Below, piece by piece: positions 2,927 to 11,412 of a stretch of 23,651 nt of DNA. Source of the DNA: a virus; IMG/VR virus record IMGVR_UViG_3300042516_003704, positions 1 to 23,651 of that record. One strand, 5' to 3'. The first letter of the stretch is position 1. Each line of letters opens with the position of its first letter. Made by a program: the position numbers and the translations under genes. Under the pieces are notes generated by a model. The model did no database searches. It was not told the DNA's origin and saw only the letters and a program-made list of their open reading frames with translations.

Positions 2927-4681
2927 ATGGCAGAAAAAATTATATCACCTAATGTTTTTGTTCGCGAAAGTGATAAATCATTAGTTACAAGAGGACCTGT
3001 TACTACTGGAGCTGCAATCGTTGGACCAACGGTTAAAGGTCGTCCATTAGTTCCTACAGTAGTTACTTCATATTCAGAATATCAATCACAATTTGGCGAA
3101 ACTTTTAAATCAGGTAGCCAATACTTTGAATATTTTACTTCATTAGCAGCTAAAGAATACTTTTCAGGTGGTGGTACATCATTACTTGTAACTCGTATTA
3201 TTTCATCATCTGCTTATAATACATACGCTCAGGCATATGTTAACGTATCTGGTTCAACTTTATCAACAGCTAATTCATCTTCATTTACTTTAGAAGTTAG
3301 AGATTATGGTAATGTTGCTAATAATACGTCTTCAATTTCATCAGCAGGTGCTTTAGATTCAGGATCAGCTGATAATATTCGTTGGGAAATATCAAATGTT
3401 GATTACTCAAAAGGTACATTTGCTGTAGTAGTACGTAGAGGTGATGATACAACTGCAACTAAAAATATTTTAGAAACATGGACTAATTTATCATTAGATC
3501 CACAACAACCAAACTTTATTTCTCGCCAAATTGGTGATGAAAAACCAGTATATGTAGCCGCAGTTGGTGCTGAATCAGCTTACGTACAATTAACTGGATC
3601 GTTTGCAGGTAGTTCTCAATATATTCGTGTTGCTTCTATTTCAACGCCACATATTGATTCATTCGATAATGAAGGTAATTTTAAAGCTCAATATTCATCA
3701 TCATTACCTGCTCTTGGATCTGGTTCATTCGGAGGAACATTTACAGGTGGCGTTGCTGCAACTACTTTAGGTGGTGCTGCTTTCTTTGATGCTATTTCAC
3801 CTTCATCAACAAATTCTCAAGGATTTACTGATGTAGATTATACAAAAGCATTATCATTACTTACAAATAAAGACGAATACGATTTTAATTTATTATTAAC
3901 TCCAGGTATGTTCTTAGGAGCTAATGCTTCAATTTCAGATGATGATGCAATTTCAACAGTAGAATCTCGTGGTGATGCATTTGCAATTGTAGATTTAGTT
4001 GCTTATGGTGATACTAAAGCAAATGCTGTATCAGCTGCTGCTGGTTCAACTTCAAATTATGGTGCTGGATATTGGCCATGGGTTCAAACATTTAGTGCTA
4101 ATTTAGGTCGTCCAGTATGGGTTCCACCATCCGTAGTAATGGCTGGTGTTTATTCATTTAATGATCAAGTAGGTGCTGAATGGTTTGCTCCTGCAGGTTT
4201 AAATCGTGGAGGAATTGGTTCAGTAATTCGTGCAGAAAAGAAATTATCTGCTGATGATCGCGATACTTTATATGAAGCAAATGTTAATCCATTAGCTACA
4301 TTCCCAGGAGAAGGAGTAGTTGCATTTGGTCAGAAAACATTCCAAAAACGTGCTACTTCATTAGATCGTATTAATGTTCGTCGTTTATTGATTAACTTGA
4401 AACGTTACGTTTCTTCAGTTTCTCGTCAATTAGTATTTGAACAAAACTCAACAGTAACACGTAATCGTTTCTTAGCAACAGTTAATCCATATATGGAATC
4501 AGTTGTTTCACAACAAGGATTATTTGCTTACAAAGTAGTAATGGACGAAACAAACAATACAGCAGATGTAATTGATCGTAACCAATTAATTGGTCAGATC
4601 TATGTTCAACCTACTAAAACTGCTGAATTTATTATCTTGGATTTCACACTTCAGCCAACTGGAGCTACTTTCCCAGCATAA
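2927..4681 (+). CDS. 18: Tail sheath protein (gp18-like)
   Basis: This 584-residue protein forms the contractile outer sheath of the tail. The N-terminus (EKIISPNVFVRESDKSLVTR) and the C-terminal third match contractile sheath proteins: NPLATFPGEGVVAFGQKT near residue 455, INVRRLLINLKRYV near 482, then NRFLATVNPYMESVVSQQG and a final LDFTLQPTG strand. The C-terminal part is what links neighbouring sheath subunits in known structures. The middle is Ser/Thr/Ala-rich and variable, as expected for outward domains. T4 gp18 is 659 residues, so this one is somewhat shorter. It follows a terminator and promoter-like motif, is followed directly by the tube gene as in T4, and ends in tandem TAA TAA stops. 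Confidence 0.95.
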   Translation: MAEKIISPNVFVRESDKSLVTRGPVTTGAAIVGPTVKGRPLVPTVVTSYSEYQSQFGETFKSGSQYFEYFTSLAAKEYFSGGGTSLLVTRIISSSAYNTYAQAYVNVSGSTLSTANSSSFTLEVRDYGNVANNTSSISSAGALDSGSADNIRWEISNVDYSKGTFAVVVRRGDDTTATKNILETWTNLSLDPQQPNFISRQIGDEKPVYVAAVGAESAYVQLTGSFAGSSQYIRVASISTPHIDSFDNEGNFKAQYSSSLPALGSGSFGGTFTGGVAATTLGGAAFFDAISPSSTNSQGFTDVDYTKALSLLTNKDEYDFNLLLTPGMFLGANASISDDDAISTVESRGDAFAIVDLVAYGDTKANAVSAAAGSTSNYGAGYWPWVQTFSANLGRPVWVPPSVVMAGVYSFNDQVGAEWFAPAGLNRGGIGSVIRAEKKLSADDRDTLYEANVNPLATFPGEGVVAFGQKTFQKRATSLDRINVRRLLINLKRYVSSVSRQLVFEQNSTVTRNRFLATVNPYMESVVSQQGLFAYKVVMDETNNTADVIDRNQLIGQIYVQPTKTAEFIILDFTLQPTGATFPA

Positions 4682-4728: not shown

Positions 4729-5217
4729 ATGGCAGTATTAGACGCAAATGAAATTATGTTTACCGCTTTTGAACCTAAGGTTCAAAACCGGTTCATAATG
4801 TATATAGACGGTATTCCCGCTTATTTGATCAAAAAAGCTTCATCACCATCATTTGAAGCTGGAGAAATCATATTAGATCATATCAACACTTACCGTAAAA
4901 TTAAAGGTAAAGTAAAATGGAATGATTTAAGTTTAGATCTTTATGATCCAATCGCTCCATCAGGTGCTCAAGCCGTAATGGAATGGGCTCGTTTGGCTCA
5001 CGAATCAGTAACAGGACGTGATGGTTATTCAGATTTCTACAAGAAAGATATCGTATTAAACGTATTAGGACCGGTAGGTGATGTAGTATCTGAATGGATT
5101 GTTAAAGGTGCTTATGTTAAAACTGCTACTTTTGGTGATTATGATTGGTCACAAGGTGAAGCTGCTGCCACTATCTCCTTAACAGTTGCAATGGATTATT
5201 GCGTATTGAATTACTAA
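4729..5217 (+). CDS. 19: Tail tube protein (gp19-like)
   Basis: At 162 residues it is almost the length of T4 gp19 (163). It forms the inner tube through which DNA passes. Family features include the N-terminal FEPKVQNRFIMYIDGIPAYL strand pair, LDHINTYRKIKGKVKWND, the LYDPIAPSGAQAVMEW helix region and the C-terminal FGDYDWSQGEAAATISLT. Position directly after the sheath is the conserved order. The coding sequence carries a strong palindrome at codons 13-20 (see the separate entry), and the gene ends in a strong terminator. Confidence 0.95.
   Translation: MAVLDANEIMFTAFEPKVQNRFIMYIDGIPAYLIKKASSPSFEAGEIILDHINTYRKIKGKVKWNDLSLDLYDPIAPSGAQAVMEWARLAHESVTGRDGYSDFYKKDIVLNVLGPVGDVVSEWIVKGAYVKTATFGDYDWSQGEAAATISLTVAMDYCVLNY
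4767..4787. repeat. Perfect 21-bp palindrome inside the tube gene
   Basis: TTTTGAACCT (4767-4776) and AGGTTCAAAA (4778-4787) are exact reverse complements around a single A. As RNA this is a 9-bp stem with a TAA loop. A further GGTTC follows at 4790-4794. It begins 38 bases into the coding sequence. Function is unknown. Confidence 0.6.
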
Positions 5218-5308: not shown

Positions 5309-6073
5309 ATGGAATCAAAATTCAAATTACCTACTGAAACAATCACTTTACCTTCAAAAGGTTTATTATATCCAAAAGATAATCCATTATCTTCAGGCGA
5401 AATTGAAATGTCTTATATGACTGCGAAACATGAAGATATTTTAACTAATGCTAATTATATTAAAAATGGAACAGCAATCGATAAATTATTAGAAGCATTA
5501 GTTGTTTCTCCAATCAGCTTTAATGATTTAATTATTGGTGATAAAAATGCTATCCTAATTGCAGCACGTATTTTAGGATATGGTAAAGATTATCCTATTC
5601 AATTTTTTAATGAAGCTACTAGACAACAAGAAGAATATACAGTAGATTTAACTTTATTAAAAGAAAAAGAAGTAGATGAATTATTATTTACATCTGGTAA
5701 AAATGAATTTACTTATGAATTACCTCAATCAAAAAATACTATTACTTTTAAATTATTAGATGGAAGTGATGAAAAAAAGATTGATCAAGAACTAAAAGGA
5801 TTAAAAAAATTATATCCAAATGATTCATTTGAATTAACTACTCGTTTGAAATTCATGATAACATCAGTTGAGGGTACGCGCGAGGCTAAAGATATACGTG
5901 AATTCGTCGACAAATATCTTACTGCGCAAGATTCACGTGCTTTACGCGATTATTATAACCAAGTAATGCCGGATGTTGATATGAAAATTGATATCGAAAA
6001 AGATGGATACACACAGGAGGGTGTAATGGTTCCTATCGGACTAAACTTTTTTTGGCCTGACGCTGGAGTATAG
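5309..6073 (+). CDS. 26: gp26-like baseplate/tail assembly chaperone, unshifted frame
   Basis: The 254-residue zero-frame product has an N-terminus (ETITLPSKGLLYP, then IEMSYMTAKHEDILTN) of the kind I associate with the T4 gp26 baseplate protein family. It continues with GDKNAILIAARILGYGKDY and a C-terminal helical part (TRLKFMITSVEGT). It lies exactly between the tube and tape-measure genes, where many tailed phages encode the G/GT tail assembly chaperone pair. The last codons read AAC TTT TTT TGG and the frame stops at 6071-6073. A second open frame continues for 97 codons past this run of T, so part of the ribosomes probably shift to make a longer protein of about 341-342 residues. The gp26 family name is from memory of motifs and is less certain than the chaperone position. 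Confidence 0.8.
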   Translation: MESKFKLPTETITLPSKGLLYPKDNPLSSGEIEMSYMTAKHEDILTNANYIKNGTAIDKLLEALVVSPISFNDLIIGDKNAILIAARILGYGKDYPIQFFNEATRQQEEYTVDLTLLKEKEVDELLFTSGKNEFTYELPQSKNTITFKLLDGSDEKKIDQELKGLKKLYPNDSFELTTRLKFMITSVEGTREAKDIREFVDKYLTAQDSRALRDYYNQVMPDVDMKIDIEKDGYTQEGVMVPIGLNFFWPDAGV

Positions 6074-6335
6074 AAGTTATTTATTCTCACAAATACATGA
6101 AATAGTATTTCATGGTAATGGAGGATATGATTGGCAAACAGTTTATGATATGCCTATATGGCTTCGTAAATTTACATTTCATAAATTAAAAGAGCATTAC
6201 GATAAAGAAAAAGAAGAATATGAAAAACAACAAAACCAATTAACAAATAAATCTACTTCAAAAGATATCGCTCGTCCAAACATAGTTCCTAAAAATAATA
6301 CACCTACATATTCATATAAAGCACCTAAAAAATAG
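6045..6335 (+). CDS. C-terminal extension of the gp26-like chaperone, reached by frameshift
   Basis: This frame opens right after a TAA at 6042-6044 and reads TFFGLTLEYRSYLFSQIHE, then IVFHGNGGYDWQTVYDMPIW and LRKFTFHKLKEHYDKEKEEY, ending in a Lys/Asn-rich tail. The first ATG is only at 6150, in the middle of what looks like one continuous domain, and there is no ATG, GTG or TTG before it. The stretch is therefore best explained as an extension of the upstream gene through a -2 or +1 shift at TTTTTTT (6047-6053). If only the ATG at 6150 were used, the product would be a 61-residue protein lacking the conserved-looking first half. This matches the GT arm of tail chaperones that recruit the tape measure. 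The stop TAG overlaps a terminator. Confidence 0.72.
   Translation, partial: TFFGLTLEYRSYLFSQIHEIVFHGNGGYDWQTVYDMPIWLRKFTFHKLKEHYDKEKEEYEKQQNQLTNKSTSKDIARPNIVPKNNTPTYSYKAPKK
6047..6054 (+). other. Probable programmed frameshift site (T7G)
   Basis: The zero frame reads AAC UUU UUU UGG. A tRNA-Phe on UUU can slip +1 or -2 within the U run and still pair perfectly, entering the frame that reads UUU GGC CUG. A -1 shift would meet UGA at 6058-6060 and is excluded. T7G is the slippery sequence known for the phage P2 tail chaperone pair, where the shift is -1. Confidence 0.65.
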
Positions 6336-6372: not shown

Positions 6373-8904
6373 ATGGCTGATAATTCACCAAATCCCAAAG
6401 ATTTACAACAGATTGAACAGTATCTTAGAGCTTCTGGGTTAAGTGCTCAAGACTTAGTTAATAGAATGAACGCTATTAAAAATAGTACTGCTGACTTTAA
6501 TAGAGAATTAGAAAATGCTAAAAGACACTTTGCTGAATTAGATGATGAACTTAATGATTTAAGTAGAACATTTAAAAATGTTTTAGATGATTTAAGAAAA
6601 TGGGATGATACTTCTAATAGAATAAATAGAAGTTATGCAAAATTAGGAAGTTTTTCAGATAAATTAAGATATGATGCTAGAGATTTAAGTCGTTTAAGTC
6701 TTCAAAATATAAAAGATTTAGATAAAAAATCAAAAATTGAATTAGAAAATCTAAATGAAAGAAGAAAAGATTTACAATTAAGATATAATAGTAATGATCT
6801 TTCAAATAAAGAATTAGATCAATTAATTGAATTAAACGGTGTATTTACCGAATCAGGACGATTAAGACAAGATGAGAATAATTACGCTCAACGATTATTA
6901 AATATAATCCAAAGAAGAAAATTAGAAGAAATAAAAATAATCCAAACCTTAGGAATATCAGGCAAATTAGTAGATGGTATTGTAAATTCTTTAGGTAAAT
7001 TAGGCGTTAGTAGTGAGTTTTTTGAAAATTTAAAAGACGATATGCGGGAAGCCGCTAAATCCGGAGATAAATGGAAAGTTATTACTGCTGCTACTAAAGG
7101 ATTAATATCAGGTATAGGTGATGCGTTAACAGATCCTGTTACTAAATTAGCTCTACTTCAACAAGCTTTTAGTTTCTTTTTAAATGCTGCAATCAATACT
7201 AGTAAACAATCAGTTGAATTAGGAAAAAATTTAGGTTATGGTGCTGATAATGCTGATAGAGTACAAAGTAACTTTAGAGTTATTGAAAGAACAGCTAATA
7301 ATTTAAATGTCACTACTGCTAATTTAAATGAAGCCTTTAACCAATTATCAGAATCTACAGGATTTGTATCTGAATATTCAGATGATGCTTTAACAACTCA
7401 AATTAAACTAACTAAACAGTTAGGATTAACAGGTGATGAAGCAGCAGGTGTATATAGATTTTCAGTATTAACTGGACAATCATCTGAAGCAACATACCAA
7501 TCAATGTTAAGAGGATATGTTGCTACTCGTAATTCATTAAATGTTGGTGTTCCTTTTAGAGCAGCAATGGCTGAAGCGGCTAAAGTAACAGGCCAATTAG
7601 CTGCTAACATGGGCTATAATGCTGAAAATACAATTAGAGGTGTTGTAGCAACTAAAGCATTAGGTACTTCATTAGAACAAGCAAAATCACAAGGTGAATC
7701 TTTACTTGATTTTCAATCATCAATTGAAAATGAATTAAAAGCTGAATTAATTACTGGTCAACAATTAAATCTTGAACGTGCTAGAGCAGCTGCTTTAATG
7801 GGTGATCAAGTTACTGTTGCTGAAGAATTAGCAGCTCAAGGTATGACGGCTGCTAAGTTTAGTGGCATGAATGTAATTGCTCAAAAATCATTTGCTGAAG
7901 CATTAGGTACTACATCAGATGAATTAGCTAATCAATTAGCTAAACGTGAAATGGCATTAGCTTCAGGCAAATCATTAGCTCAAATTACTGCCGAAGAAGC
8001 GGATGAGGCTGCTAAACGTCAAGATATACAAGAGAAGTTTAACGCAGCTATGTTAAAATTACAAAGTGTTATTGGTAATCTATTAGCTGGTCCGTTAGGT
8101 TCATTCTTAGAAATGTTAGCTAGTGGATTAGATTTAATAAATAGAATGATATACCCATTAACTGCAATTGGGGCTTTATATGCTGGATTTAATGTAGCTA
8201 AACAAGTAGGTTTAGGACTTGATCGAGCGGCCTTTGTTTTAAAAGGCCAAGAAATGGGACAGGTATTTTTCTTAAATAGACAAAAAGAAGTTGGTCTTCT
8301 AATGGACAAACAAGGTTTAATAGCTAGAATTGCTTATAACGTTCAATTAGCTAGTTCAGCAGCTATTGAAGGAACAATATCCGGAGCTAAAAAACTACAA
8401 GTAGGAATAGAAACTGTTCTTCTTTCACTTAAAAGAAGTGGTTTAGCAATAACTATTAGAGAAGCACTTAATAGTATAGCATCAGCTGCAATGGCTGCTT
8501 ATGAATCAGCAGCAAAAATTCCAGGGATTGGATGGATATTAGGTGGAGCTGCTGCTGCTGGAGTAGTTGGATTAGGTTATAGTTTAATGAAAGATGGTGT
8601 TGTAGATCCAAATAAAGGACCAGTAATGACTGGGGAATTTGGTACTGTACAAATGGATCCAAAAGATAAAGCAATGTATGGTGCTGATGGGAAAATTAAA
8701 GTAGGTACTAATTTATTAGGAGATGATAACGGAAAAATAACATCAATAAAATCTACTCCAGCTATGGATATTACACCAATGGTATCAGCTATTAATCAAG
8801 TAACAGCCGCAATAACAAAAATGAATGATAAATCATGGGATGTGAAACTTGATTCTAAATCAGTAGGAGCTGGATTGATACAAAATTCATATAGATCTGC
8901 TTAA
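6373..8904 (+). CDS. Tail tape-measure protein
   Basis: This 843-residue protein should fix tail length. Residues about 1-190 are long charged helices with coiled-coil character (FNRELENAKRHFAELDDELN; LENLNERRKDLQLRYN). The middle is Ala-rich and helical (TAANLNEAFNQLSESTGF; EAAGVYRFSVLTGQSSEA). Hydrophobic stretches lie near residues 569-610 (LLAGPLGSFLEMLASGLDLI and following) and 716-738 (IPGIGWILGGAAAAGVVGLG), as tape-measure proteins often have. The last residues (WDVKLDSKSVGAGLIQ) resemble the common C-terminal ending of this class. The position after the chaperone gene is decisive. T4 gp29 is 590 residues, so this tail may be longer. I see no lytic motif inside it. Confidence 0.87.
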   Translation: MADNSPNPKDLQQIEQYLRASGLSAQDLVNRMNAIKNSTADFNRELENAKRHFAELDDELNDLSRTFKNVLDDLRKWDDTSNRINRSYAKLGSFSDKLRYDARDLSRLSLQNIKDLDKKSKIELENLNERRKDLQLRYNSNDLSNKELDQLIELNGVFTESGRLRQDENNYAQRLLNIIQRRKLEEIKIIQTLGISGKLVDGIVNSLGKLGVSSEFFENLKDDMREAAKSGDKWKVITAATKGLISGIGDALTDPVTKLALLQQAFSFFLNAAINTSKQSVELGKNLGYGADNADRVQSNFRVIERTANNLNVTTANLNEAFNQLSESTGFVSEYSDDALTTQIKLTKQLGLTGDEAAGVYRFSVLTGQSSEATYQSMLRGYVATRNSLNVGVPFRAAMAEAAKVTGQLAANMGYNAENTIRGVVATKALGTSLEQAKSQGESLLDFQSSIENELKAELITGQQLNLERARAAALMGDQVTVAEELAAQGMTAAKFSGMNVIAQKSFAEALGTTSDELANQLAKREMALASGKSLAQITAEEADEAAKRQDIQEKFNAAMLKLQSVIGNLLAGPLGSFLEMLASGLDLINRMIYPLTAIGALYAGFNVAKQVGLGLDRAAFVLKGQEMGQVFFLNRQKEVGLLMDKQGLIARIAYNVQLASSAAIEGTISGAKKLQVGIETVLLSLKRSGLAITIREALNSIASAAMAAYESAAKIPGIGWILGGAAAAGVVGLGYSLMKDGVVDPNKGPVMTGEFGTVQMDPKDKAMYGADGKIKVGTNLLGDDNGKITSIKSTPAMDITPMVSAINQVTAAITKMNDKSWDVKLDSKSVGAGLIQNSYRSA

Positions 8905-9654: not shown

Positions 9655-11412
9655 ATGTTATTTGACAAATTAAAAAGTACTAAACTCAAATCATTAAAAT
9701 TTGGGGGGACGAAAACTAAAGGAGATTCTATTGAACCTTATATCGTAACTGATATAAATTCATTAGATAATCCTAATAATCCTTCCCAATTCACTACAAA
9801 TGATGATGGATTTATACGTGGAGGTGTAACAAACGCCTTTAATTCATCTATTACTGATACTAAACGTATTTTTAAATTTTTTACCGATCCAACTAAAGGA
9901 CCTTTATTTATTGCTAAACAAGTTGGATTACAACTTTCAAATCCTCCATTAGAAACAAGAAAATTAAGTGTTGAAGGAGAAGGAACTTTAGCTAATGTAA
10001 CTAATGCTGCTTTAAGTGTAGTTAATGCAGCAAATAGTTTATTTGGAGGTAATACTCGTATCTATAATTTAGGTATTAATACATTAGCTCAAGTGCCTTT
10101 ATCAGCATTTGGTGGGCATATTGTTCGTCATGGTTTTTTACCTATTAAAACAGATGATCAAAAATATGAATCAGTAGTTACTTTTAATAATAAAAATACT
10201 AATGCTAATCGTTTAGTAGAATTACGTAAAAAGTTTTTTTTATTAAATAAAGATCGTGACAATAAAGTTGAACAAACTAATCCAAATGAATTAAAAATAA
10301 AAACTAGTTTTGGTAGTTCTAATTCATTATACGGTATAGGTTTTACTTCAATTCATAGAACAACATTTACAGGAGATGGATACAAATTTAATGAATCTCT
10401 TGATAAATCAAAATCAAAAACTAATGGGGGAAATTATCCATTTCTTCTAAAAGTAGAACCACAATCAACTGATTATACAACATATCGAAAAGCTAAATTT
10501 GATACGCAAGTAAAAAATTTAAATATACTTATTGGTCCAACAGCCAAACCAACAGGTTCAATTTTACTAGGAGATGTTGAAAATAGAGGAAAACTACTTA
10601 CAAAAGTATCTCCATTACAACCAACACCTTCAGACGTTCGTGTTGATAATACTATTGTAAAATATAAACCAAGCGGTAGTAATACTGAATTTATTAAACC
10701 TTTTTCTAAGACTAAAAGTGCAATTTATAATAAATTAATACAAACAGCTGCTTTAGTTAAAAATGATGATACTAAAACAACAAAAGAAATTGTAAAAGCA
10801 GGGCAAACGAAATCAATAAAAATTGATTTAAATAAAACAGCTCCAGCAGGTACTATATTTGATTATAATTATAATATTAAAGCATTAACTGCTCCCTATA
10901 ATAGAAATGATGATGGGATAATGAAAGTTACATTTAAGCCAATAAATCCATGGAGTCTTACTACTACCCCATTAGAATTTAAAGCTTTTATAACTGGATA
11001 TAATGAATCTCATGATAGTGGTTGGGATTCTATAAAATATAATGGTCGTTCAGAATTTTTATATACTTTTAACAGTTATAAAAAAACAGCTAATTTTAAA
11101 TTAAAAATACCATCATTTAATAAAACCGATTTAGATACTAATCATACTCGATTAAAAATTCTTCAAAACGCAATGGCTGGAGGATATTTTGAAAACAGAT
11201 TAGGAGGATATATAATAGAAATAAATTTAGGAGGGTATATAAATTCACCATGTATAATTAACAGTATGAATCTTTCCATTCCTGATGAAGCTTCTTGGGA
11301 TATAGACAATAAATCTGAAGATGGAAATAATAATTTACCATTATCTACTTTACTTGAATCTACCTTTAATGTTATTGTTTTAGGAAACGAAGTACCAGGT
11401 ATATATTCATAA
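9655..11412 (+). CDS. Baseplate or tail structural protein, unknown class
   Basis: This is a 585-residue protein. Its start (MLFDKLKSTKLKSLKFGGTK) again resembles the two preceding ones. A helical, conserved-looking block follows at about residues 52-105 (FIRGGVTNAFNSSITDTKRI; GPLFIAKQVGLQLSNP), then beta-rich sequence. The C-terminal 150 residues look like a compact beta domain (PLEFKAFITGYNESHDSGWD; GRSEFLYTFNSYKKTANFKL; LGGYINSPCIINSMNLSIP), reminiscent of phage baseplate/tail-tube-like folds. It lies between the tape measure and the gp53-like and hub-like genes, so a baseplate or tail-end protein (equivalent to gp48/gp54 or hub parts) is likely. I cannot decide which. Confidence 0.72.
   Translation: MLFDKLKSTKLKSLKFGGTKTKGDSIEPYIVTDINSLDNPNNPSQFTTNDDGFIRGGVTNAFNSSITDTKRIFKFFTDPTKGPLFIAKQVGLQLSNPPLETRKLSVEGEGTLANVTNAALSVVNAANSLFGGNTRIYNLGINTLAQVPLSAFGGHIVRHGFLPIKTDDQKYESVVTFNNKNTNANRLVELRKKFFLLNKDRDNKVEQTNPNELKIKTSFGSSNSLYGIGFTSIHRTTFTGDGYKFNESLDKSKSKTNGGNYPFLLKVEPQSTDYTTYRKAKFDTQVKNLNILIGPTAKPTGSILLGDVENRGKLLTKVSPLQPTPSDVRVDNTIVKYKPSGSNTEFIKPFSKTKSAIYNKLIQTAALVKNDDTKTTKEIVKAGQTKSIKIDLNKTAPAGTIFDYNYNIKALTAPYNRNDDGIMKVTFKPINPWSLTTTPLEFKAFITGYNESHDSGWDSIKYNGRSEFLYTFNSYKKTANFKLKIPSFNKTDLDTNHTRLKILQNAMAGGYFENRLGGYIIEINLGGYINSPCIINSMNLSIPDEASWDIDNKSEDGNNNLPLSTLLESTFNVIVLGNEVPGIYS

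Follow-up and report, generated by a model that had tools for sequence, protein, structure and literature searches.

How can a conserved protein region be produced from a reading frame that offers no start codon ahead of it? This question is raised by two overlapping frames in the window, by which we mean the whole stretch of viral DNA analyzed here (23,651 nucleotides): A gp26-like open reading frame on the plus strand, coding for 254 amino acids, ends in CTA AAC TTT TTT TGG CCT GAC GCT GGA GTA TAG, and a second frame, shifted by +1 (equal to −2) relative to the first, opens at 6045 after a TAA and extends over 96 codons plus the stop, up to 6335. The first ATG, GTG or TTG of this second frame is found at 6150. 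The coordinates agree with those of an earlier note on this DNA, which had described a 0 frame ending at 6073 and a start-less second frame from 6045. The T run at the junction is one of only two runs of at least seven T on the plus strand of the whole window (T7 at 6047 and T8 at 10234). As that note had pointed out, a −1 shift at this run meets a stop at once (TGA), whereas shifts by −2 or +1 pair perfectly on T7; the computed products of 254 amino acids without a shift and of 341 (+1) or 342 (−2) amino acids upon read-through likewise match the sizes it had given (about 254 and 341–342). The junction would be translated as NFFGLTLEYR, with two F, under +1 and as NFFFGLTLEYR, with three F, under −2. 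The predicted tryptic junction peptide is DGYTQEGVMVPIGLNFFGLTLEYR under +1 and the same peptide with FFF under −2, while DGYTQEGVMVPIGLNFFWPDAGV is predicted without any shift. The features of the locus are collected in Table 1.

Table 1. Features of the chaperone locus and its neighbors (window coordinates).
Feature	Position	Strand	Basis
Tail sheath	2927–4681		Position beside tail tube, as in Immuto
Tail tube protein	4729–5217	+	phrog_4542, E 2e-23
TAC-N (gp26-like short chaperone, 254 aa, 0 frame)	5309–6073	+	PF12322, phrog_150, IMG/VR conservation, AlphaFold2
SD-like AGGAGG, 26 nt before T run	6015–6020	+	SD-like 5-mer enrichment, Glu codon bias
TAA closing +1 frame upstream of slip site	6042–6044	+	Sequence
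Putative slip site TTT TTT T(GG C)	6047–6053	+	TTT TTT TGG in 211/240 junctions
TAC-C domain, +1 frame (GLTLEYRSYLFSQIHEIVFHG...), C-terminal part of putative long form	6054–6335	+	dN/dS, hhalign, helical model
TAG, 0-frame stop, ends short form	6071–6073	+	Stop position conserved in 240 junctions
Tape-measure protein	6373–8904	+	Homology and synteny; 25% identity, E 2e-38 to annotated Immuto tape-measure protein

We propose, with a probability of about 0.8, that a programmed +1 ribosomal frameshift makes two tail-assembly chaperones (TACs) from this one gene. According to this mechanism, most ribosomes would read AAC UUU UUU UGG and terminate at the UAG, thereby producing TAC-N, a counterpart of lambda gpG. 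A minority would slip forward by one nucleotide with tRNA-Phe paired to UUU in the P site, where UUU re-pairs with UUU; these ribosomes would read GGC at 6054 next and produce TAC-NC, a protein of 341 amino acids that resembles gpGT and carries TAC-C. By analogy with lambda, TAC-N would coat the tape-measure protein and TAC-C would recruit the tail-tube protein. We infer the slip itself, its efficiency and the chaperone function, as well as, by comparison of related loci, the direction of the slip. The programmed frameshift with a G/GT-like logic that had been suggested earlier is supported by the conserved offset, the conserved site and the strong purifying selection on the start-less second domain.

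The identity of the gene is supported by its product, which scores 29.5 bits against PF12322 (cut-off 24.5) and matches phrog_150 with an E value of 9e-15. Tail assembly chaperones are usually encoded just upstream of the tape-measure gene, and the gene order in the window is tube, TAC-N/TAC-C and tape measure, with the chaperone gene directly upstream of the tape-measure homologue. The assignment of the earlier note, a T4-type chaperone gene of the gp26 family, is thus upheld. The structures of the TAC-N and TAC-C halves were predicted separately: The AlphaFold2 model of TAC-N (pLDDT 92) resembles other gp26 proteins in BFVD, and its best matches in the PDB are two TACs, YqbN (Z 5.5) and HK97 gp13 (Z 4.5), both of them weak. 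The model of TAC-C is helical, with a pLDDT above 90 over about residues 11–60.

The frame offset, the site, the selection, the homology of TAC-C and the gene order can be read directly from the compared loci. Each of the 156 IMG/VR loci coding for both parts has the second domain in this +1/−2 frame, at nearly the same junction. Further scans beyond these loci led to 248 distinct junctions, 242 of which are +1/−2; three are −1 (jumbo phages), two have a separate start (L341, L346) and one is unassigned (LR756511, L166). The overlapping-frame arrangement is thereby confirmed well beyond chance, and the homologue alignment that had been advised as a check finds the T run, the frame offset and the second domain conserved. 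Isolates with the arrangement are Flavobacterium phage Immuto, Microcystis phage Mel-JY01, Bacillus phage SP-15, Listeria phage LIS04 and Streptococcus phage GXN1. Ten relatives reside in bacterial genome contigs, four of them in Flavobacteriales bins (Winogradskyella sp., Flavobacteriaceae or Flavobacteriales) and one in a Sphingobacteriales bin; judging by these bin assignments, the close clade probably infects Bacteroidota. In one contig (L100:762-3431), the TAC-C frame lacks a stop and is continuous with that of the tape-measure protein over 890 codons; this is either a natural deletion fusion or an assembly error.

Selection follows the second frame. We computed dN/dS for the 99 nt past the slip, nearly all of which precede the earliest potential start codon in the window: The +1 frame has a value of 0.18 (0.185 when 89 independent pairs are used), and the two other frames have values of 1.1–1.8. 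For the 24 nt that the two frames share up to the 0-frame stop, the values are 0.45 (+1 frame) and 0.88 (0 frame). The low values of the +1 frame indicate that the second frame is translated from the T run onward, that is, before the 0-frame stop. Moreover, in each of the 240 junctions with a recognizable site, over which the site statistics were taken, this stop follows the first base of the slip at a distance of 15–27 nt, so that the short product is kept as well. Judged by such comparison, the +1 clade appears real and is well supported.

The direction of the slip can be approached via the natural variants of the site, whose per-position conservation is 0.96–1.0. Apart from the predominant TTT TTT TGG, the 0-frame codons read TTC TTT TGG in nine junctions (one clade), TTT CTT TGG in six, TTT TTT TAY in four, TTT TTT TTC and CTT TTT TGG in three each, TTT CTT TAC in two and TTT CTA TTC in one; TTC CTT TGG of L346 was left out as a frameshift site because its TAC-C has its own start. 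The second codon is TTT or CTT (CTA once) but never TTC, even though TTC accounts for 19% of the Phe codons in the rest of these ORFs. Good re-pairing is possible in every variant if the ribosome slips forward on one or the other of these codons. The main competitor is a −2 slip on T7, as in phage Mu, within the same two-product gene, which would add one Phe and yield 342 amino acids. It re-pairs perfectly on T7, fits the TTT TTT AGT site of LIS04 well and agrees with the first codon, which, as −2 needs, is never TTC in the main clade (0/229, against the same 19% elsewhere). This absence exceeds what slipping on codon 2 only would need and would be explained by slipping on codon 1, slipping on either codon, or −2. 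In three lineages, however, −2 re-pairing is mismatched, namely in the TTC TTT TGG clade, in GXN1 (TTC TTT CGT) and in LR756508 (TTT CTA), all of which nonetheless have the domain in the same frame, so that under −2 the direction would have to change between close lineages. Because these three independent lineages with broken T runs fit +1 only, +1 is the sole single direction compatible with all natural site variants and is to be preferred by comparison, while −2 is unlikely. The earlier wording, "−2 or +1", was right about the offset and is narrowed here to +1.

In the window alone, the two directions are indistinguishable, since T7 sites, like TTT CTT sites, re-pair acceptably under either. 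The CTT variants, which arise at five points of the TTTTTTTGG background on a quick tree with many open forks, look at first like proof of +1 but favor neither direction. The common argument for +1 from a rare codon does not hold: The +1 A-site codon GGC, at 3.7 per 1000 in the window, is rarer than UGG at 12.1.

TAC-C might also be initiated separately, at an internal or non-AUG start or by reinitiation after the UAG. Such a solution exists in L341 and L346 (the same contigs as L373 and L374), where an ATG-started TAC-C with an N-terminal extension follows just after the TAC-N stop in another frame and no +1 fusion is possible; the conserved SD-like element upstream of the slip site and the TAATG/TGATG overlaps of some −1 relatives would also suit it. 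For the window it is very improbable: The +1 frame offers no start before 6150, selection acts from the T run onward, and the TAA closing this frame prevents any initiation further upstream in it from yielding TAC-C. Across the family, 156 of 240 loci have a +1-frame stop at most 30 nt before the slip, 147 of them together with an SD-like motif, and 103 of 240 are free of any start codon up to 81 nt past the slip. A separate start in homologues, which the earlier note had counted against its own proposal, does occur, but in only two of the 248 junctions, and the conserved region of the window is devoid of start codons. As the closest sisters of the two, L375 and L376, retain TTT CTT TGG and the domain in the +1 frame, frameshifting looks like it was lost there in favor of a separate gene.

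RNA polymerase slippage on T7, which would generate a mixed mRNA population, would profit from the homopolymer at the junction. Yet members with a broken run (TTTCTTT, TTCTTTT, TTTCTA) retain the frame, which excludes slippage of this kind for them; seven T's are, moreover, short for RNA polymerase slippage, and we find the explanation hardly credible. The chance of a sequencing error or pseudogene is negligible in spite of the homopolymer, since hundreds of independent contigs and also isolates (Immuto, Mel-JY01) share this junction; together with the dN/dS of 0.18, this excludes for the family also the T-run length error that had been raised before.

Within the preferred +1 frameshift, the SD-like element calls for an explanation of its own. 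An SD-like 5-mer is present within 60 nt upstream of the slip in 214 of 240 junctions versus 10% of the control windows taken from these ORFs, the best [AG]GGAGG match has its end 23 or 26 nt upstream of the T run, and the Glu codon at −30 is GAG in 138 cases and GAA in seven, compared with 19% GAG elsewhere. A role as ribosome-binding site of TAC-C is ruled out by the +1-frame stops between element and domain. The CUU UGG C and UUU UGG C forms of the site, preceded by AGGAGG, resemble the +1 site CUU UGA C of prfB (RF2) with its SD. They differ in that a sense UGG occupies the A site and the element lies 23–26 nt before the T run, whereas RF2 has a stop codon there and an SD that precedes the slip codon by about 3 nt; at this distance the element is too far away for RF2-type or dnaX-type stimulation. 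No consensus RNA structure around the site was found with RNAalifold, and single-sequence z-scores are only mildly low (mean −1.1, 12–90 nt downstream). In Bacteroidia, whose ribosomes hide the anti-SD, prfB frameshifting with AGGAGG has been kept (PMC8710568). As a tentative and rather doubtful idea, the element could stimulate +1 frameshifting in a new way, from a distance of about one ribosome footprint, via a trailing ribosome or the normally hidden Bacteroidia anti-SD, in a T4-like family that switched direction and also gave up frameshifting for a separate gene. In cyanophage Sf-FS3 (L356:2107-2196), GGAGGG is found about 9–10 nt before T_TTT_TTC, the classical distance of a −1 stimulator, in contrast to the distant element in the +1 clade.

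TAC-C is a conserved domain of 95 residues that connects the +1 clade to phages with other arrangements. In hhalign comparisons, the +1-frame TAC-C, represented by 102 members, is matched to the −1-frame domain of T4-like relatives with a probability of 96% (E 4e-9) and to the SP-15 domain with 74% (E 3e-5). The −1 group comprises 121Q, Atu_ph07, RaK2, EniLVp02, Sf-FS3, IC12, PA5oct, XacN1 and RAS14, with sites of the type T_TTT_TTC or T_TTT_TTT. In T4, both gp26 and gp51 belong to PF12322/phrog_150, with phrog_634 at the C terminus of gp51. Direct hhalign comparisons of TAC-N and TAC-C with gp51 are weak (TAC-C against the gp51 C terminus: E 0.008, 5%); the link runs via the −1 group and the common Pfam and PHROG families. 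The overlaps TAATG/TGATG are situated at the TAC-N stop in L351 (121Q), L354 (EniLVp02) and L358 (Cygsa01), with TAC-C in the −1 frame, and in these phages TAC-C might also arise by termination-reinitiation.

Vladimirov, Gautam and Davidson reportedly identified TACs in T4-like phages in 2022 and linked the gp26 family to the G/GT chaperones, so that this link, also drawn by the earlier note, holds but is not new. Their work is cited in both PMC12846349 and PMC10885494, the former referring to polyT −1 signals in T4-like TAC genes and the latter to some T4-like phages in which two genes, one short and one long, take the place of a frameshift. G-T frameshifting occurs by −1, −2 or +1 in different phages, and the review of the subject still counts T4 as an exception (Atkins et al. 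2016, PMC5009743). In the open papers we found no description of a +1 clade among T4-like TACs. What is new here is this large clade, the switch of direction within one homologous family, the conserved SD-like element 23–26 nt upstream and the two relatives with a separate ATG-started TAC-C.

With T4 and its relatives, the window shares the protein family, the short and long forms and, with the −1 relatives, a homologous TAC-C; it differs in that T4 uses two genes (26 and 51) rather than one frameshifted gene, and the other T4-like groups examined shift by −1 on T_TTT_TTC/TTT, where the window would run into TGA. Like the G-T genes of lambda and other long-tailed phages, it has one gene with short and long products just before the tape-measure gene, a likeness of gene organization, and lambda shifts by −1. 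The +1 shift of the archaeal myovirus HSTV-2 and the −2 shift of Mu enter the same frame in tail chaperone genes (PMC5009743); they concern other hosts and are compared here by the frame entered. The forward direction is unusual for this phage family, though the frameshift switch is known. The G/GT rule thus gains a large environmental T4-like clade that would use a forward slip while its homologues use −1 or two genes, and this natural series can be used to study the evolution of frameshift direction at a single gene. Current annotations overlook TAC-C or cut it short, and the long forms should consequently be annotated as joined genes. In Immuto, gp038 (L159:6854-6964), annotated as a hypothetical protein of 36 amino acids, is the truncated end of TAC-C and starts past the conserved region.
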